Shown here one piece after another: positions 6,120-48,523 of a stretch of 64,000 nucleotides of DNA (the first letter of the stretch is position 1; each line of letters opens with the position of its first letter). This DNA comes from Balneolaceae bacterium. GTDB lineage: Bacteria; Bacteroidota; Rhodothermia; Balneolales; Balneolaceae. Made by a program: the position numbers and the translations under genes. Location of the stretch: NCBI GenBank assembly GCA_034521445.1, contig JAXHMM010000004.1:1-64000 (forward strand), given 5' to 3'. The notes under the pieces are model-generated. The model was given only the letters and a program-made list of their open reading frames with translations, made no database searches and was not told where the DNA came from.

Positions 6120-7787
6120 ATGGAGACATTTGAACGGGTCATAGCGTGGCTAGAAAACGCAATCTGGAACTTTCCTGAAGCGATGCCGGCCATGGTGGTC
6201 CTCCTGCTCGCCTTCGGCCTCTTCATCACCTTCCGCCTCGGATTCGTTCAGATACGGCGTTTTGCCCACGGCCTCAAGGTGGTCTCCGGCTTCTACGACG
6301 ACCCCGACGACGACGGGGACATCAACCACTTCCAGGCCCTCACCACCGCCCTTTCGGCTACGGTGGGCATCGGCAATATCGCCGGGGTGGCCCTGGCCAT
6401 TCACTACGGGGGACCCGGCGCGCTTTTCTGGATGTGGGTGACCGCCATCTTTGGCATGGCCATCAAGTATACGGAGGTAACCCTCGCCCAGGAGTACCGC
6501 GGCAAGAATCCCGACGGCTCGGTTTCCGGGGGACCCATGTACTATATCGAACGGGGACTGGGCTCCAACTGGAAGTGGCTGGCCGTGGCCTTCGCCATTT
6601 CCGCCGCCATCTGCGCCTTCCTTACCGGCAACGCCGTGCAGGCCAACACGGTGGCCGACATGATGAAAACCGACTTTCAGGTACCCGTGGCCATCACAGG
6701 ACTGATTACCGCCAGTCTGGTGGCCATGGTGGTGCTGGGCGGCATCAAGCGCATCGGTCGGGTAACCTCCCGCCTTGTGCCTGTCATGGGCATCCTCTAC
6801 GTGCTGGGCGCGCTGGTCATCCTGCTGATCAACTACGAAGCCGTGATCCCCTCCTTTGTGACCATCGTCAGCAATGCCTTCAACCCGCAAGCCGGCGCTC
6901 TCGGCGTGGGTTCGGGCGCCCTCATCTTCACCCTGAGCTACGGAGTGCAGCGAGGCATCTTTTCCAACGAGGCGGGCCAGGGATCGGCCCCCATCGCCCA
7001 CTCGGCGGCCAAAACCGACCAGCCTGTGCGTGAAGGCGTGGTGGCCCTGCTGGAACCCTTTATCGACACGCTGATTATCTGCACCATGACCGGCCTGGTT
7101 ATCGTCTCCACCGGCTCCTGGGACGCCCATCACCCCTCCTCGGTGGATCCTTCGGGTGACGTGACGCACTACACCTACACCGCCTCCCAGGAATCGCCGG
7201 GCATGGAGAGTGACGCGCCGGTGCTCTATTTCGAGAACGGCATACCCGTAAACGGCACCATGTACTATAACGAATTCCCCGCCGACACCATGTACGTGGA
7301 TCAAGGCTACTCTACGCCCTTCAACGGCCGCATTGAGCTGCAGCAGAACGAGGAGGGCGACTACATGGCGGTAAGTACCTTTACCGACGACGACAGCCGT
7401 ATCACCACCCTCTACGGGGGCGTCGTGCAGCTGGGCGCGCCGCTCACCTCGGCCGCCTTCGAACGGGGACTCGCCCCGCTGACTTCGGGCGGCGGCTACA
7501 TCGTGACCCTTGCCGTGCTGCTCTTTGCCATCTCCACCTCCATCAGCTGGAGTTACTACGGCGACCGCGCGGCACAATACCTCTTCGGCTTCGAATCCAT
7601 CTTCTGGTACCGGATCGCCTTTGTAGGCATGCACTTTTTCGGAGCGGTGGTCTCGGTGGCCGTGATCTGGAGCTTCGGCGACGTGATGCTGGGTCTGATG
7701 GCCTTCTTCAACATCATCGCCCTCTTCGCCCTCTCAGGCGTAGCCTACAAGATTCACAAAAAGTACTTTGAGAATACGGACGTATAA
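6120..7787 (+). CDS. sodium:alanine symporter (AGCS family)
   Basis: Inner-membrane amino-acid/Na+ symporter of the alanine or glycine:cation symporter family (TC 2.A.25). The 555-aa protein has about ten hydrophobic segments and the family motifs TALSATVGIGNIAGVALAI and GGPGALFWMWV, followed by SGGPMYYIERGLG and FSNEAGQGSAPIAHSAA. It differs from the usual 450-500 aa length through a hydrophilic, acidic insertion (about residues 345-455) rich in Asp, Tyr and Thr, presumably outside the membrane. The start is ATG at 6120 after CAGGAG. The AAGTC repeat tract follows it directly. Confidence 0.93.
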   Translation: METFERVIAWLENAIWNFPEAMPAMVVLLLAFGLFITFRLGFVQIRRFAHGLKVVSGFYDDPDDDGDINHFQALTTALSATVGIGNIAGVALAIHYGGPGALFWMWVTAIFGMAIKYTEVTLAQEYRGKNPDGSVSGGPMYYIERGLGSNWKWLAVAFAISAAICAFLTGNAVQANTVADMMKTDFQVPVAITGLITASLVAMVVLGGIKRIGRVTSRLVPVMGILYVLGALVILLINYEAVIPSFVTIVSNAFNPQAGALGVGSGALIFTLSYGVQRGIFSNEAGQGSAPIAHSAAKTDQPVREGVVALLEPFIDTLIICTMTGLVIVSTGSWDAHHPSSVDPSGDVTHYTYTASQESPGMESDAPVLYFENGIPVNGTMYYNEFPADTMYVDQGYSTPFNGRIELQQNEEGDYMAVSTFTDDDSRITTLYGGVVQLGAPLTSAAFERGLAPLTSGGGYIVTLAVLLFAISTSISWSYYGDRAAQYLFGFESIFWYRIAFVGMHFFGAVVSVAVIWSFGDVMLGLMAFFNIIALFALSGVAYKIHKKYFENTDV

Positions 7788-7789
7788 CT

Positions 7790-7870
7790 TATAAAGTCTG
7801 GTAAGTCCTAAAGTCTAGAAGTCGGGAAGTCTGAAAGTCGGATAGTCTTGAAGTCTGAAAGTCGAAGAGT
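7790..7870. repeat. AAGTC short-repeat tract between symporter and upp
   Basis: Immediately after the symporter stop lies a run of imperfect 7-9 nt repeats with core AAGTC (AAAGTCTGG, TAAGTCCT, AAAGTCTAG, AAGTCGGG, AAGTCTGA, AAGTCGGA, and so on). It continues to within a few bases of the upp start. All copies have the same orientation. A second tract of the same type lies at 14836-14980. No gene, hairpin or terminator is evident inside this copy. Confidence 0.85.
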
Positions 7871-7877
7871 CGATAAG

Positions 7878-14847: not shown

Positions 14848-14980
14848 AGTCTATAAAGTCGAAAAGTCCTAAAGTCGGGAAGTCGGGAAGTCGGGAGGTC
14901 GGGAGGTCAAAAAGTCCGAAGGTCCACCGACTTCAAGACTTTTCGACTTCGAGACTTTTGGACTTTAGTGTTAGACTTTT
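14836..14980. repeat. AAGTC/GACTT repeat tract between convergent genes
   Basis: Second tract of AAGTC-type short repeats. About 14836-14925 carries AAGTC-oriented copies (AAAGTCTAT, AAAGTCG, AAGTCGGG repeated, AGGTCGGG). About 14925-14980 carries the reverse orientation (GACTTC, GACTTTT, CGACTTCGAGACTTTTGGACTTT). The two arms can fold into a long imperfect hairpin between the convergent exonuclease and glgC genes. The last codons of both genes are repeat copies. It may act as a bidirectional terminator. Confidence 0.85.
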
Positions 14981-44840: not shown

Positions 44841-45013
44841 GGGTGGAATAATTGGCGTATGTAGAACTTGTTTGAGGGATGTGGAAGAATATGCACAGAT
44901 CGCCCGTCAATCCAAAGTCCCCCCTAATCCCCAGGCCCGGTATTCTGCGGTAGCTGTGACATAACGACCCCCAGGGCTCCATGCTACCAGTATTCAAGTA
45001 CCGAATGCACTGC

Positions 45014-45283
45014 TTACAGGTAATCGGTCAGCACAATCTCTCCATGAATCAGCCGGCGAAGCATAACCTTGCTTTTCCAGCTCTTTATTTTTTGTTCTGC
45101 TTCCTGTGCCTCCTCCCGGCTATCAAACGAGTGCTGGTAGACCACATTCCACGGGCGGTAACGGCGGGTATGGCCTTGCCGACCGTGGTTGTGGAAGTAC
45201 AATCGACGCTCCAGATCATTGGTAAGACCCACGTAGTAGCTCTCACGGACTTCCGATCGCAATATGTACAGCACATGCTCCAT
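45014..45283 (-). CDS. GIY-YIG endonuclease-domain protein
   Basis: An 89-aa stand-alone GIY-YIG nuclease domain: VLYILRSEVRESYYVGLTND (the Y-Y pair), RRYRPWNVVYQHSFDSREEA (Arg/Glu), and a C-terminal EQKIKSWKSKVML. The YhbQ/UPF0213-type size suggests a host nuclease rather than a homing endonuclease. The ATG at 45281-45283 lies inside the first unit of the tRNA-derived array. It has no Shine-Dalgarno; only five nt before it comes the T-tract of that unit's terminator, so it appears to be shut off from upstream transcription unless read-through occurs. Confidence 0.85.
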   Translation of the reverse strand: MEHVLYILRSEVRESYYVGLTNDLERRLYFHNHGRQGHTRRYRPWNVVYQHSFDSREEAQEAEQKIKSWKSKVMLRRLIHGEIVLTDYL

Positions 45284-45287
45284 ATGT

Positions 45288-45322
45288 AAAAAAAGCCCTG
45301 CTCACAGGAGTAAGCAGGGCTT
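45288..45322 (-). terminator. terminator in the first array unit, abutting the GIY-YIG gene
   Basis: On the minus strand AAGCCCTGCT (45322-45313) pairs with AGCAGGGCTT (45302-45293), followed by seven T at 45294-45288. It lies five nt before the GIY-YIG start codon. The same hairpin recurs in every unit of the array. Confidence 0.9.
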
Positions 45323-46218
45323 CGCTCCCCGGGGCGGATTCGAACCGCCGTCCCGACATCGTCGGGATAACAAGCCGATTGCTCTGCTCACAAATTATTG
45401 GTCATCTATTGACCATATGTAAAAAAAGCCCTGCTCACAGGAGTAAGCAGGGCTTCGCTCCCCGGGCGGATTCGAACCGCCGTCCCGACATCGTCGGGAT
45501 AACAAGCCGATTGCTCTTGCTCACAAATTATTGGTCATCTATTGACCATATGTAAAAAAAGCCCTGCTCGCCGGGAGTAAGCAGGGCTTCGCTTCCCGGG
45601 GCGGATTCGAACCGCCGTCCCAACATCGTCGGGATAACAAGCCGATTACTCTGCTCACAAATTATTGGTCATCTATTGACCATATGTAAAAAAAGCCCTG
45701 CTCACAGGAGTAAGCAGGGCTTCGACTCCCGGGGCGGATTCGAACCGCCGTCCCGACATCGTCGGGATAACAAGCCGATTGCTCTGCTCACAAATTCTGG
45801 TCATCTATTGACCATATGTAAAAAAAGCCCTGCTCACAGGAGTAAGCAGGGCTTCGCTCCCCGGGGCGGATTCGAACCGCCGTCCCGACATCGTCGGGAT
45901 AACAAGCCGATTACGCTGCTCACAAATTATTGGTCATCTATTGACCATATGTAAAAAAAGCCCTGCTCACAGGAGTAAGCAGGGCTTCGCTCCCCGGGGC
46001 GGATTCGAACCGCCGTCCCGACATCGTCGGGATAACAAGCCGATTGCTCTGCTCACAAATTATTGGTCATCTATTGACCATATGTAAAAAAAGCCCTGCT
46101 CACAGGAGTAAGCAGGGCTTCGCTCCCCGGGGCGGATTCGAACCGCCGTCCCGACATCGTCGGGATAACAAGCCGATTACTCTGCTCACAAATTATTGGT
46201 CATCTATTGACCATATGT

Positions 46219-46253
46219 AAAAAAAGCCCTGCTCACAGGAGTAAGCAGGGCTT
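46219..46253 (-). terminator. terminator of the intact tRNA-Asn
   Basis: Same 8-10 bp GC-rich stem (GCCCTGCT/AGCAGGGC) and seven-T tract as in the other units, immediately after the tRNA 3' end. Confidence 0.92.
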
Positions 46254-46255
46254 CG

Positions 46256-46327
46256 CTCCCCGGGGCGGATTCGAACCGCCGACCCATCGGTTAACAGCCG
46301 ATTGCTCTGCCGCTGAGCTACCGAGGA
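46256..46327 (-). tRNA. tRNA-Asn(GTT)
   Basis: A complete 72-nt cloverleaf. The acceptor stem TCCTCGG pairs with CCGGGGA (two G-T pairs), discriminator G; the D-arm is GCTC/GAGC with a 7-nt loop; the anticodon arm is ATCGG-CTGTTAA-CCGAT with anticodon GTT; the variable loop is GGGTC; the T-arm is GGCGG-TTCGAAT-CCGCC. The CCA end is not encoded. It is the only copy in the region with an intact 5' half and a normal anticodon stem, so it is the probable parent of the surrounding repeats. Confidence 0.93.
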
Positions 46328-46730
46328 ATAAATAACAGTATGTCAACTTCCGGTAGCTGCGATTCGAACGCCGTCCCGACATCGTCGGGATAACAGCCGA
46401 TTGCTCTGCCGCTGAGCTACCGAGGAATAAATAACAGTATGTCAACTTCCGGTAGCTGCGATTCGAACGCCGTCCCGACATCGTCGGGATAACAGCCGAT
46501 TGCTCTGCCGCTGAGCTACCGAATGAAATAGCGGATTCGCTTCCCGATAGCTCCGATACAGTACTGTCAACTTCCGGTAGCTCGCCGCGACTCGATAACA
46601 GCCGATTGCTCTGCCGCTGAGCTACCGAGGAATAAATAACAGTAGGTCAACTTCCGGTAGCGCGATTGACGCCGTTCCACACCGTCGGAATAACGCCGAT
46701 TGCCTCTCCGCTCAGCTACCGAGGAATTGA
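46328..46730 (-). repeat. upstream cluster of four degenerate tRNA-Asn-like copies
   Basis: Copies of the tRNA 5' half (minus-strand TCCTCGGTAGCTCAGCGGCAG) end at 46426, about 46524, 46631 and 46725. Unlike the downstream array they keep the 5' half and D-arm but have a shortened T-arm (GCG-TTCGAAT-CGC) and a new 3' end AGCTACCGGAAG that pairs perfectly with GGTAGCT. Two of them carry the TCCCGAC/GTCGGGA palindrome after the anticodon. Spacers hold AATAAATAACAGTATGTCAA. The rightmost copies are heavily decayed. Confidence 0.82.
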
Positions 46731-47686
46731 GAACCCGAATATAACCACTAGAGGGAACGTAAGTCAAGGATTTTTTCCAATCTTTATCGATGAATTCCTG
46801 GTCTAGTTTCCTTCAACCGTCCAATAGAACCTAATATAAGCTATGAGGATTATAGGCTTGTACCTGCTGCAAAAAAATATTAACGCATTTTAATCACTAA
46901 CTATTTGATATTTATAGCTCTATCTTTGATATTGAAAAAGAACAAAATCTAAAGAGCGCTTCATTCAAAAATAATCTAGAATCATGAGGGAGTTTCGAAT
47001 AGAAACTGTTGCATTTCGCCTCTCAGCGCTCTATATCGATAGCATATCACTCCGCAGAGGATACTAAAATGATTCGTTGAATCTACATTCTCTGTTAGAT
47101 GTTTGCCGGAGGGCAGGTCGGCGACAAGAATCATATTTCTTGTAGCTAAATAAGATACAGTTTAGATTTTGGACCTGATTTCTCACGGCCAGATACCCTT
47201 TCTCACTCCCTACGCAACATGCCGGCAGCCGTCTGAGCTGACACGGCAGGTTTCAATGGAATCACAGCCGACTTATACAGGGATTTCTTTGCGTTTTTTC
47301 GAATACAAAATGCACTCTGAAATCGATATCACCGTAAGATCTAAAGGAAAATAAGTATAGAAAACGGTAACGACCCATGCGAACTTTCACGCAATTGCAA
47401 CAAGAAATCGGGAGCTGAACAAATAAAGGAGGCAGCACCAGAGAACTTCTCCAAAGCCTCAAGGCTTCGGAGAAGGGTCGACACCCTGGTACCGCCCGTA
47501 TAAAGACCTATAGTAGGTATATATCTTAGCAAGGTATAGTTACTGAACGAGTTGTTCAACGGGCTCCTCTTTTTCCCTGTTTTGCTCCTTTTTCATCCGG
47601 GGAATAACCCCACTGGGATTCCGCGAGGGCGGATTAATAAATCTCAGCTAGTTACACCAATCCGAATAAATCATAGGAGTAATACT
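46731..47686. other. AT-rich region without recognisable genes
   Basis: About 950 nt, clearly richer in A and T than the surrounding coding DNA. A 61-codon open frame at 47169 has no family resemblance or good ribosome-binding site and is probably chance. Two neighbouring hairpins lie at 47446-47486. The rest shows no repeats, genes or clear terminators, and should contain the curlin gene's promoter. Confidence 0.6.
47446..47486 (+). other. two consecutive hairpins upstream of the curlin-like gene
   Basis: CTTCTCCAAAGCC at 47446-47458 pairs with GGCTTCGGAGAAG at 47463-47475 (one mismatch, TCAA loop). GGGT/ACCC (47475-47486) forms a second small hairpin. No T-tract follows. They may be part of a structured leader of the curlin gene, 200 nt downstream. 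Confidence 0.5.
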
Positions 47687-48523
47687 ATGAGACGCTTAAT
47701 AATGCTATGTTTTGTTCTGCTTTTTGCCAGTTCCATGGCAATCGCGCAGAATAACGAAACCGACATTACCCAGGCATCCGATAATAACGATGCCATTGTC
47801 GATCAGTCAGGAGAAGCCAATATCGCCACTGTCACTCAGAAAGGCGTAGGCGTAAACACTGCCATCATCAATCAGAGCAGCAATCCTGGCGAAACCGGCA
47901 TCATCGAGTCCACTATTCGACAGATCGGATACCATAACACCGCGATTGCCAACGGATCGCGTAAGAACTACAGAAGCTCGACTACCAAGCAAGTTCAGCT
48001 TGGCAACCACAACAGAGCTGTAATTAACCCGAATGGAAACATTGGAAGCAACCTTGGAACAGCCCTGACGCAGGTTCAGCAAGGTAACCAGAACTTCGCC
48101 ACGATGAGTGGTAAAAACAGTTACTCTGCGGAACAGCGCCAGAATGGCTTCTCCAACGTTGCCAAGACGTCCGGTAATTCAAAGAACGCGGATGTCTTCC
48201 AGAAACAAGTCGGCAACAACAACCGTGCAATAATGGACGGAGCCAACTTCGGATACGCCTCCTCGAACCAGCGGCAGTTCGGTGATCAAAATGTTTCCAT
48301 ACTGGAAAATGTCGGACACGACGGTCCGGGCGAATCCTACGTAACCTACCAGAACGGCACGCTCAATACAGCAAGACTATTCGCCAACGGTTATGGCGGC
48401 GTGCTTGACATCAGCCAGATCTCCAATCAAAATTCCGCAAAAGTTACCTGGACAACACCCGGTAACTCGACGGATATCAATCAGACCGGCTTCAGCAACT
48501 CCGCCGTAGTCAATTCCAACTAA
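47687..48523 (+). CDS. secreted curlin-repeat (CsgA/CsgB-like) protein
   Basis: A 278-aa secreted protein with a signal peptide (about 1-20, ending SSMAIAQ). The rest is made of curlin-type repeats with pattern Q..x.N.A...Q: NNETDITQASDNNDAIVDQS, EANIATVTQKG, NTAIINQSS, GNHNRAVINP, GNQNFATMSG, NNNRAIMDG, NQNSAKVTW, INQTGFSNSAVVNS. These stack as a beta-solenoid and form amyloid fibres in known curli. No csgB/E/F/G genes are nearby. Start ATG 47687 has AGGAG eight nt upstream. It is Asn/Gln/Ser rich, and its codon use is less GC-rich than its neighbours. Confidence 0.85.
   Translation: MRRLIMLCFVLLFASSMAIAQNNETDITQASDNNDAIVDQSGEANIATVTQKGVGVNTAIINQSSNPGETGIIESTIRQIGYHNTAIANGSRKNYRSSTTKQVQLGNHNRAVINPNGNIGSNLGTALTQVQQGNQNFATMSGKNSYSAEQRQNGFSNVAKTSGNSKNADVFQKQVGNNNRAIMDGANFGYASSNQRQFGDQNVSILENVGHDGPGESYVTYQNGTLNTARLFANGYGGVLDISQISNQNSAKVTWTTPGNSTDINQTGFSNSAVVNSN

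Follow-up and report, generated by a model that had tools for sequence, protein, structure and literature searches.

What the eleven decayed copies around the intact tRNA-Asn(GTT) gene of a Balneolaceae bacterium are, and how they came to lie there, is the question raised by this locus. It was addressed in a window (the whole stretch of DNA analysed, 64,000 nucleotides) that is contig C4 of a 3.2-Mb genome. The intact gene is the sole tRNA called in the window by ARAGORN and Rfam, and it is single copy, no other tRNA-Asn having been found in the genome. The array probably represents the remains of a tRNA-associated GIY-YIG nuclease cassette, apparently selfish, which would spread by cutting tRNA genes.

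The array and the nuclease gene at its edge

Two arrays are reported by Tandem Repeats Finder: the one at 45280-46285 has a period of 133 bp (96% match, score 1894), and the other, at 46292-46727, a period of 99 bp (79% match). Splitting by hand gives seven units downstream of tRNA-Asn, each harboring a broken tRNA copy (hereafter T'), and four units upstream of it. The features are the following:

46255-46327, minus strand: intact tRNA-Asn(GTT) (ARAGORN; Rfam RF00005, 66.5 bits)
46224-46253, minus strand: intrinsic terminator GCCCTGCT...AGCAGGGC followed by T7, read from the sequence, directly 3' of tRNA-Asn and recurring in each downstream unit
45281-46223, minus strand: seven tandem 133-bp mini-cassettes, each a GIY-YIG ORF-end remnant, T' and terminator
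46187-46219, minus strand: example linker, from the unit nearest the tRNA; ACATATGG is the GIY-YIG gene start, and TGACCAATAATTTGTGAGCAGAGCAATCGG matches the gene 3' end plus tRNA
46149-46165, no strand assigned: palindrome TCCCGACATCGTCGGGA in place of tRNA positions 37-46; it recurs at 45351, 45483, 45618, 45751, 45883, 46016, 46374 and 46473
45014-45283, minus strand: GIY-YIG nuclease gene, 89 amino acids, at the distal end of the array, the one full cassette gene left (Pfam PF01541, E 1.6e-18)
44995-45013, minus strand: decayed T' start directly after the nuclease stop codon, GCAGTGCATTCGG against GCAGAGCAATCGG in the tRNA
46328-46725, minus strand: four upstream units of about 99 bp, each a 5' tRNA half, a T-arm remnant and an AGCTACC closing stem
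46737-46767, minus strand: promoter-like TTGACT ... TATATTCG, read by eye

The T' of the 133-bp units consists of tRNA positions about 18-36, the palindrome, and positions 47-73; positions 37-46 are absent, and in their place stands TCCCGACATCGTCGGGA, or the reverse complement of this sequence, according to the strand read. These downstream units keep the T-arm and the 3' acceptor strand and are devoid of the 5' acceptor strand. In the upstream units the terminal AGCTACC pairs with GGTAGCT, and the better-kept ones carry the same palindrome as the downstream units, at 36|47. Nine copies of TCCCGACATCGTCGGGA are found in the array, one of them with one mismatch; with up to three mismatches allowed, 17 matches occur in the window against 5.9 expected, a number reached by none of 100 shuffles. 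The terminator followed by ACATATGG occurs eight times in the array, as split by hand. As the promoter-like site, which was compared by eye with TTGAC...TATATTTG 5' of tRNA-Asn in relatives, is located 5' of all four upstream units, these are presumably transcribed as part of the tRNA-Asn leader. Elsewhere in the window, a curlin-repeat gene (47552-48523) separates tRNA-Asn from truA, the two being close neighbours in many relatives, and short-period repeats of the AAGTCGGG / AAGTCTGG type are found at 7793-7872 and 14854-14965.

Read along the minus strand, the locus comprises tRNA-Asn, its terminator, seven successive sets of linker, T' and terminator, and finally the 89-codon GIY-YIG gene, whose start codon falls inside the last copy of TTTTTTTACATATGG. 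Each linker opens with TTTTTTTACATATGG and closes with TGACCAATAATTTGTGAGCAGAGCAATCGG, the latter aligning with the last codons of the gene and its post-stop sequence TGACCGATTACCTGTAAGCAGTGCATTCGG. The local alignment of linker and gene end scores 34, and none of 1000 shuffles is as good. Since the linker fuses the start and the end of the GIY-YIG gene, each 133-bp unit is, to judge from its sequence, a nuclease cassette minus its ORF, removed by internal deletion. The seven units would have lost the ORF by one such deletion and been amplified afterwards, leaving one full nuclease gene.

The predicted fold of the protein (pLDDT 93.8) is that of a GIY-YIG domain alone, to which no DNA-binding extension is attached. 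Residues Y17, G19, R27, H31 and E63 are invariant among 17 nuclease sequences, and fold and catalytic residues fit the GIY-YIG nuclease superfamily. The nearest folds are UPF0213 and Slx1, followed by UvrC and I-TevI, whose scores carry no weight. Among five family members tested against NCBIfam, four have no match and the fifth has a sub-threshold match to a group I intron endonuclease. A search for close phage relatives returned weak matches only, at 35-38% identity. To note, a related GIY-YIG gene is present outside the phylum, on a Candidatus Buchananbacteria contig.

The preliminary description of this locus, one intact tRNA-Asn flanked by seven downstream and four upstream decayed copies, is confirmed by ARAGORN, Rfam and the hand split, as are the regular downstream period, the palindrome in the tRNA-derived units, and the two structural classes with opposite decay and closing stems. 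Its counts, coordinates and stems were correct, but it missed the GIY-YIG ORF at the edge and the linker built from its two ends. It was right to see amplification where simple drift might have been assumed: drift and a plain satellite are both rejected, in view of the match between linker and gene ends and of the survey across the phylum described below. The stand-alone tRNA satellite that it proposed is abandoned, as the units appear to be debris of GIY-YIG cassettes, seven of which have had their ORF deleted. A known plasmid or phage repeat was also considered and rejected, the blastn matches listed being to the tRNA itself only. An assembly loop is unlikely as a general cause: many genomes have similar arrays, in one case on a closed chromosome (G208), and the units in the window differ from one another by single bases. 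In two relatives (G028 and G034) the array ends contigs.

Cassettes beside tRNA genes across the Bacteroidota

Nuclease homologues were taken with their flanks from 59 relatives, and a 17-sequence profile was run over 198 Bacteroidota genomes, with 36 named loci added; the contig scan was seeded with a five-row alignment. A profile match at E 1e-12 or better is found in 115 of the 198 sampled genomes. At a profile score of at least 80, a tRNA gene lies within 1 kb in 76 of 80 evaluable loci and within 250 bp in 70, always on the same strand and with 18 anticodons represented. A 77th tRNA-adjacent locus (L164) escaped this count for the sole reason that its top-scoring gene comes fifth in a tandem. 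Outside the window's family, and leaving out loci cut by contig ends, 55 of the 56 evaluable loci have a tRNA within 250 bp, on the strand of the nuclease gene, for a chance of 0.032 per locus; these loci are related by descent, so that the counts overstate independence and do not stand for 56 separate events. Given the variety of tRNA isotypes, one inherited arrangement is insufficient to explain the adjacency. A weaker GIY-YIG group (profile score 35-60) is tRNA-adjacent in 4 of 11 loci. Two loci (L206 and L208) exhibit nuclease and T' without an intact tRNA nearby, and another (L151) a tRNA-like, palindrome-bearing remnant.

Sequence comparison defines the cassette as a short gene of 80-90 codons for the nuclease, a palindrome-broken T' of the adjoining tRNA, and the terminator of that tRNA. 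Most often the order is intact tRNA, terminator, nuclease, and 3' part of T'; less often it is 5' part of T', nuclease, and intact tRNA (L165, L172). Of 77 loci, 63 have a T' on the far side of the nuclease gene as seen from the intact tRNA; with shuffled flanks the number is one. In 61 of these 63 copies the homology is broken by an insert of at least 8 nt, and an insert with a stem of at least 6 bp is found in 48 loci, against 2.9 expected. The break points recur by isotype (36|47 in Asn, 28|46 in Val and Pro, 49|58 in Gly, 50|59 in Asp), while the start of T' varies anywhere from tRNA position 5 to 52. When T' was compared with the local tRNA and with the same tRNA of other species, the local one was best in 36 cases, tied in 6 and worse in 2, a likeness that could also come from gene conversion. 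The cassettes are often in tandem, and a given tRNA may have them in one species but not in a relative.

The orthologous tRNA-Asn is located 3' of truA in many relatives, where it occurs with and without the nuclease. The tRNA and its terminator stand alone in five loci (L002, L003, L019, L027, L028), while in some relatives the GIY-YIG gene directly follows the tRNA-Asn terminator; cassettes with an intact nuclease share the arrangement seen in the window. Other relatives harbor tRNA-Asn pseudo-copies upstream or downstream whose palindrome occupies that same position but differs in sequence (TCCGCC..GGCGGA, CCCCGAC..GTCGGGG), so that the palindrome is conserved as a theme. The idea of a purely dispersed, REP-like palindrome is partly true, as the palindrome occurs elsewhere in several genomes, but GTTATCCGCC...GGCGGA, searched in 39 genomes, is found only at tRNA-Asn pseudo-copies. 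The pattern TCCCGAC-N2-6-GTCGGGA is dispersed in three relatives (28, 14 and 10 copies in G012, G010 and G005; none for a reversed-pattern control), sometimes inside other repeat-like hairpins (L118, L126, L128, L130), which suggests a wider palindrome family.

In a tree of 90 nucleases, built on a short alignment of 82 columns so that the starred forks alone are trusted, the anticodon label changes 26 times against a shuffled mean of 53.7, and none of 200 shuffles is as low. The 22 Asn rows account for two changes; the six Met rows form one clade spanning four families, and Leu forms one clade with four anticodons. Nuclease lineages appear from this tree to track the tRNA isotype and not the host.

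One case of presence and absence is that of the closed chromosome (G208), in which tRNA-Met is followed by five tandem 365-bp cassettes. The cassette is absent from all 24 congener loci of this tRNA-Met, and in the three nearest congeners the same downstream ORF comes directly after the tRNA, an empty site. The terminator following the tRNA differs from that of these three congeners, as expected if incoming DNA had replaced the stretch after the tRNA. The genome of the window itself holds a second relic array, of tRNA-Met type and free of nuclease (C5:424240-424833; 6240-6834 of locus L009): three identical 120-bp units and decayed pseudo-tRNA copies with TCCCGACCCTGTCGGGA, located upstream of a likely prolyl-tRNA synthetase gene, with no intact tRNA left. 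No second GIY-YIG homologue was found in this genome.

A proposed route of spread and its alternatives

The favored explanation, a selfish cassette, would operate as follows. In a cell without the cassette, the nuclease would cut the tRNA gene. Repair of the break on a template that carries the cassette would then bring in nuclease and T' and rebuild an intact tRNA, its 5' half coming from one side and its 3' half from the other, the essential gene being invaded unharmed. Because tRNA halves flank the cassette on both sides, break repair would rebuild an intact tRNA with either form. The palindrome would take the cut site out of T', and further breaks, or unequal recombination between the intact tRNA (T) and T', would grow the units into tandem arrays. 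As with free-standing homing endonucleases, the gene lies at or beside its presumed target, as seen from the tRNA adjacency and the isotype-following lineages, and the cassette is present or absent at orthologous sites (the tRNA-Met above; tRNA-Asn by truA).

Some observations speak against homing. T' is broken by the palindrome, yet the adjacent intact tRNA keeps its sequence (for example in G208 compared with L241); seemingly unchanged, it should, by sequence, still be cut. The protein, as modelled, is a bare GIY-YIG domain nearer to the structure-specific Slx1 and to UPF0213 than to I-TevI. Moreover, any mutation would destroy the cut site, so that immunity alone does not account for a palindromic insert. 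A possible, though rather unlikely, alternative is that the same cassette encodes a structure-specific, Slx1-like nuclease that would cut the cruciform or hairpin extruded by the T' palindrome, with the breaks driving T-T' recombination and the palindrome acting as substrate and not as immunity. The nearest structures, a protein devoid of DNA-binding extension, hairpin inserts far above chance and the frequency of tandem arrays would all fit such an enzyme, but the isotype-specific nuclease lineages suggest sequence recognition, and some genomes have like palindromes dispersed away from tRNAs, with no nuclease noted there.

It is improbable that the pseudo-tRNAs are functional RNAs, acting as decoys or, within the tRNA-Asn transcript, as its leader and attenuator. 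A function for a pseudo-tRNA is known in Bacillus cereus (PMC3399842), every downstream unit has a terminator, and the upstream units lie between the promoter-like site and the tRNA. Against this, presence at the same locus is sporadic among relatives, and upstream and downstream copies keep different parts. The terminators, taken in the preliminary description as a sign of discrete short RNAs, belong to the amplified cassette and repeat as part of it, so their conservation is no evidence for small RNAs.

Ordinary tandem duplication of the tRNA, with slippage or unequal crossover as its cause, later decay of the copies and the GIY-YIG gene as a chance neighbour, would agree with the point decay of the units and with the tandem repeats that adjoin tRNAs elsewhere, as at E. 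coli tyrT; it is very improbable, being already contradicted by the linker made of the nuclease gene's ends, the 55 loci, out of 56 outside the family, with nuclease and tRNA side by side, and the palindromes at fixed, isotype-specific positions. Equally hard to credit are attachment-site scars of integrases (of a phage, ICE or satellite) that insert at the 3' end of the tRNA. Copies of part of the tRNA 3' region located 3' of an intact tRNA do look like att duplications, but the gene recurring at the loci is a GIY-YIG, the T' copies are palindrome-interrupted with no fixed start, and 5'-half copies exist too.

Beyond the selfish cassette itself, we advance more tentatively that this may be a new class of bacterial mobile element, in which a Slx1-like bare GIY-YIG nuclease and a palindrome-armed pseudo-tRNA, serving as its own structured recombination site, would invade essential tRNA genes isotype-specifically while the tRNA is preserved; satellite derivatives devoid of the nuclease, such as the units of the window, would be amplified alongside. 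The nuclease family, in 115 of 198 genomes, appears selfish and specialised on tRNA genes. If true, the selfish cassette would account for tRNA-flanking pseudo-tRNAs and for some assembly-breaking repeats, and would offer a test case for the repeated invasion of an essential single-copy gene without death of the host.

Comparison with known systems

A search of the open-licence literature gave no account of chromosomal cassettes that join a GIY-YIG gene and a palindrome-broken tRNA copy at a tRNA. The best PDB relatives in sequence and structure, Slx1 and the UPF0213 / COG2827-type proteins (BH0048, 1zg2; EF2693, 1ywl), share the bare GIY-YIG domain; the UPF0213 entries come from structural genomics with no assigned function, and none of the UPF0213 and Slx1 descriptions found mentions a tRNA-cassette context. 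The rtT repeats of E. coli tyrT (Rfam RF00391) likewise follow a tRNA in tandem, and each includes part of its 3' end, but they have no nuclease gene and no palindrome replacing a tRNA arm. At the Rfam gathering threshold, RF00391 has no match in the window, where RF00005 alone is matched. REP/REPIN palindromes, mobilised by RAYT transposases (PMC3116915, PMC3733652), resemble those described here in being short and dispersed, and some are present in the same genomes; they differ from palindromes placed at fixed positions in broken tRNA copies beside a GIY-YIG gene.

The closest precedent, an experimental one, is SegB of phages T4 and T6, a free-standing GIY-YIG homing endonuclease encoded in a tRNA cluster (PMC13096335, PMC2988022). 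T6 SegB cuts in tRNA genes at the motif RAWTSGAAC and drives tandem amplification of tRNA-Tyr and a truncated segB via a short shared sequence (PMC13096335). This motif, on the other strand, resembles T-arm sequence. Both systems have a GIY-YIG gene among tRNA genes, on the same strand. SegB is phage-borne, 221 amino acids long with a C-terminal extension, and no palindrome-broken tRNA copy is described for it, whereas the present cassettes are chromosomal, encode 80-90 residues and keep to one isotype per lineage. An hhalign comparison of the two nucleases is weak and confined to the GIY-YIG part (probability 35%, E 4e-4). The cassettes are best placed among the free-standing homing endonucleases as a variant, and there is a genuine chance that they form a separate class. 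The proposed spread, if true, would be the cellular counterpart of SegB amplification.
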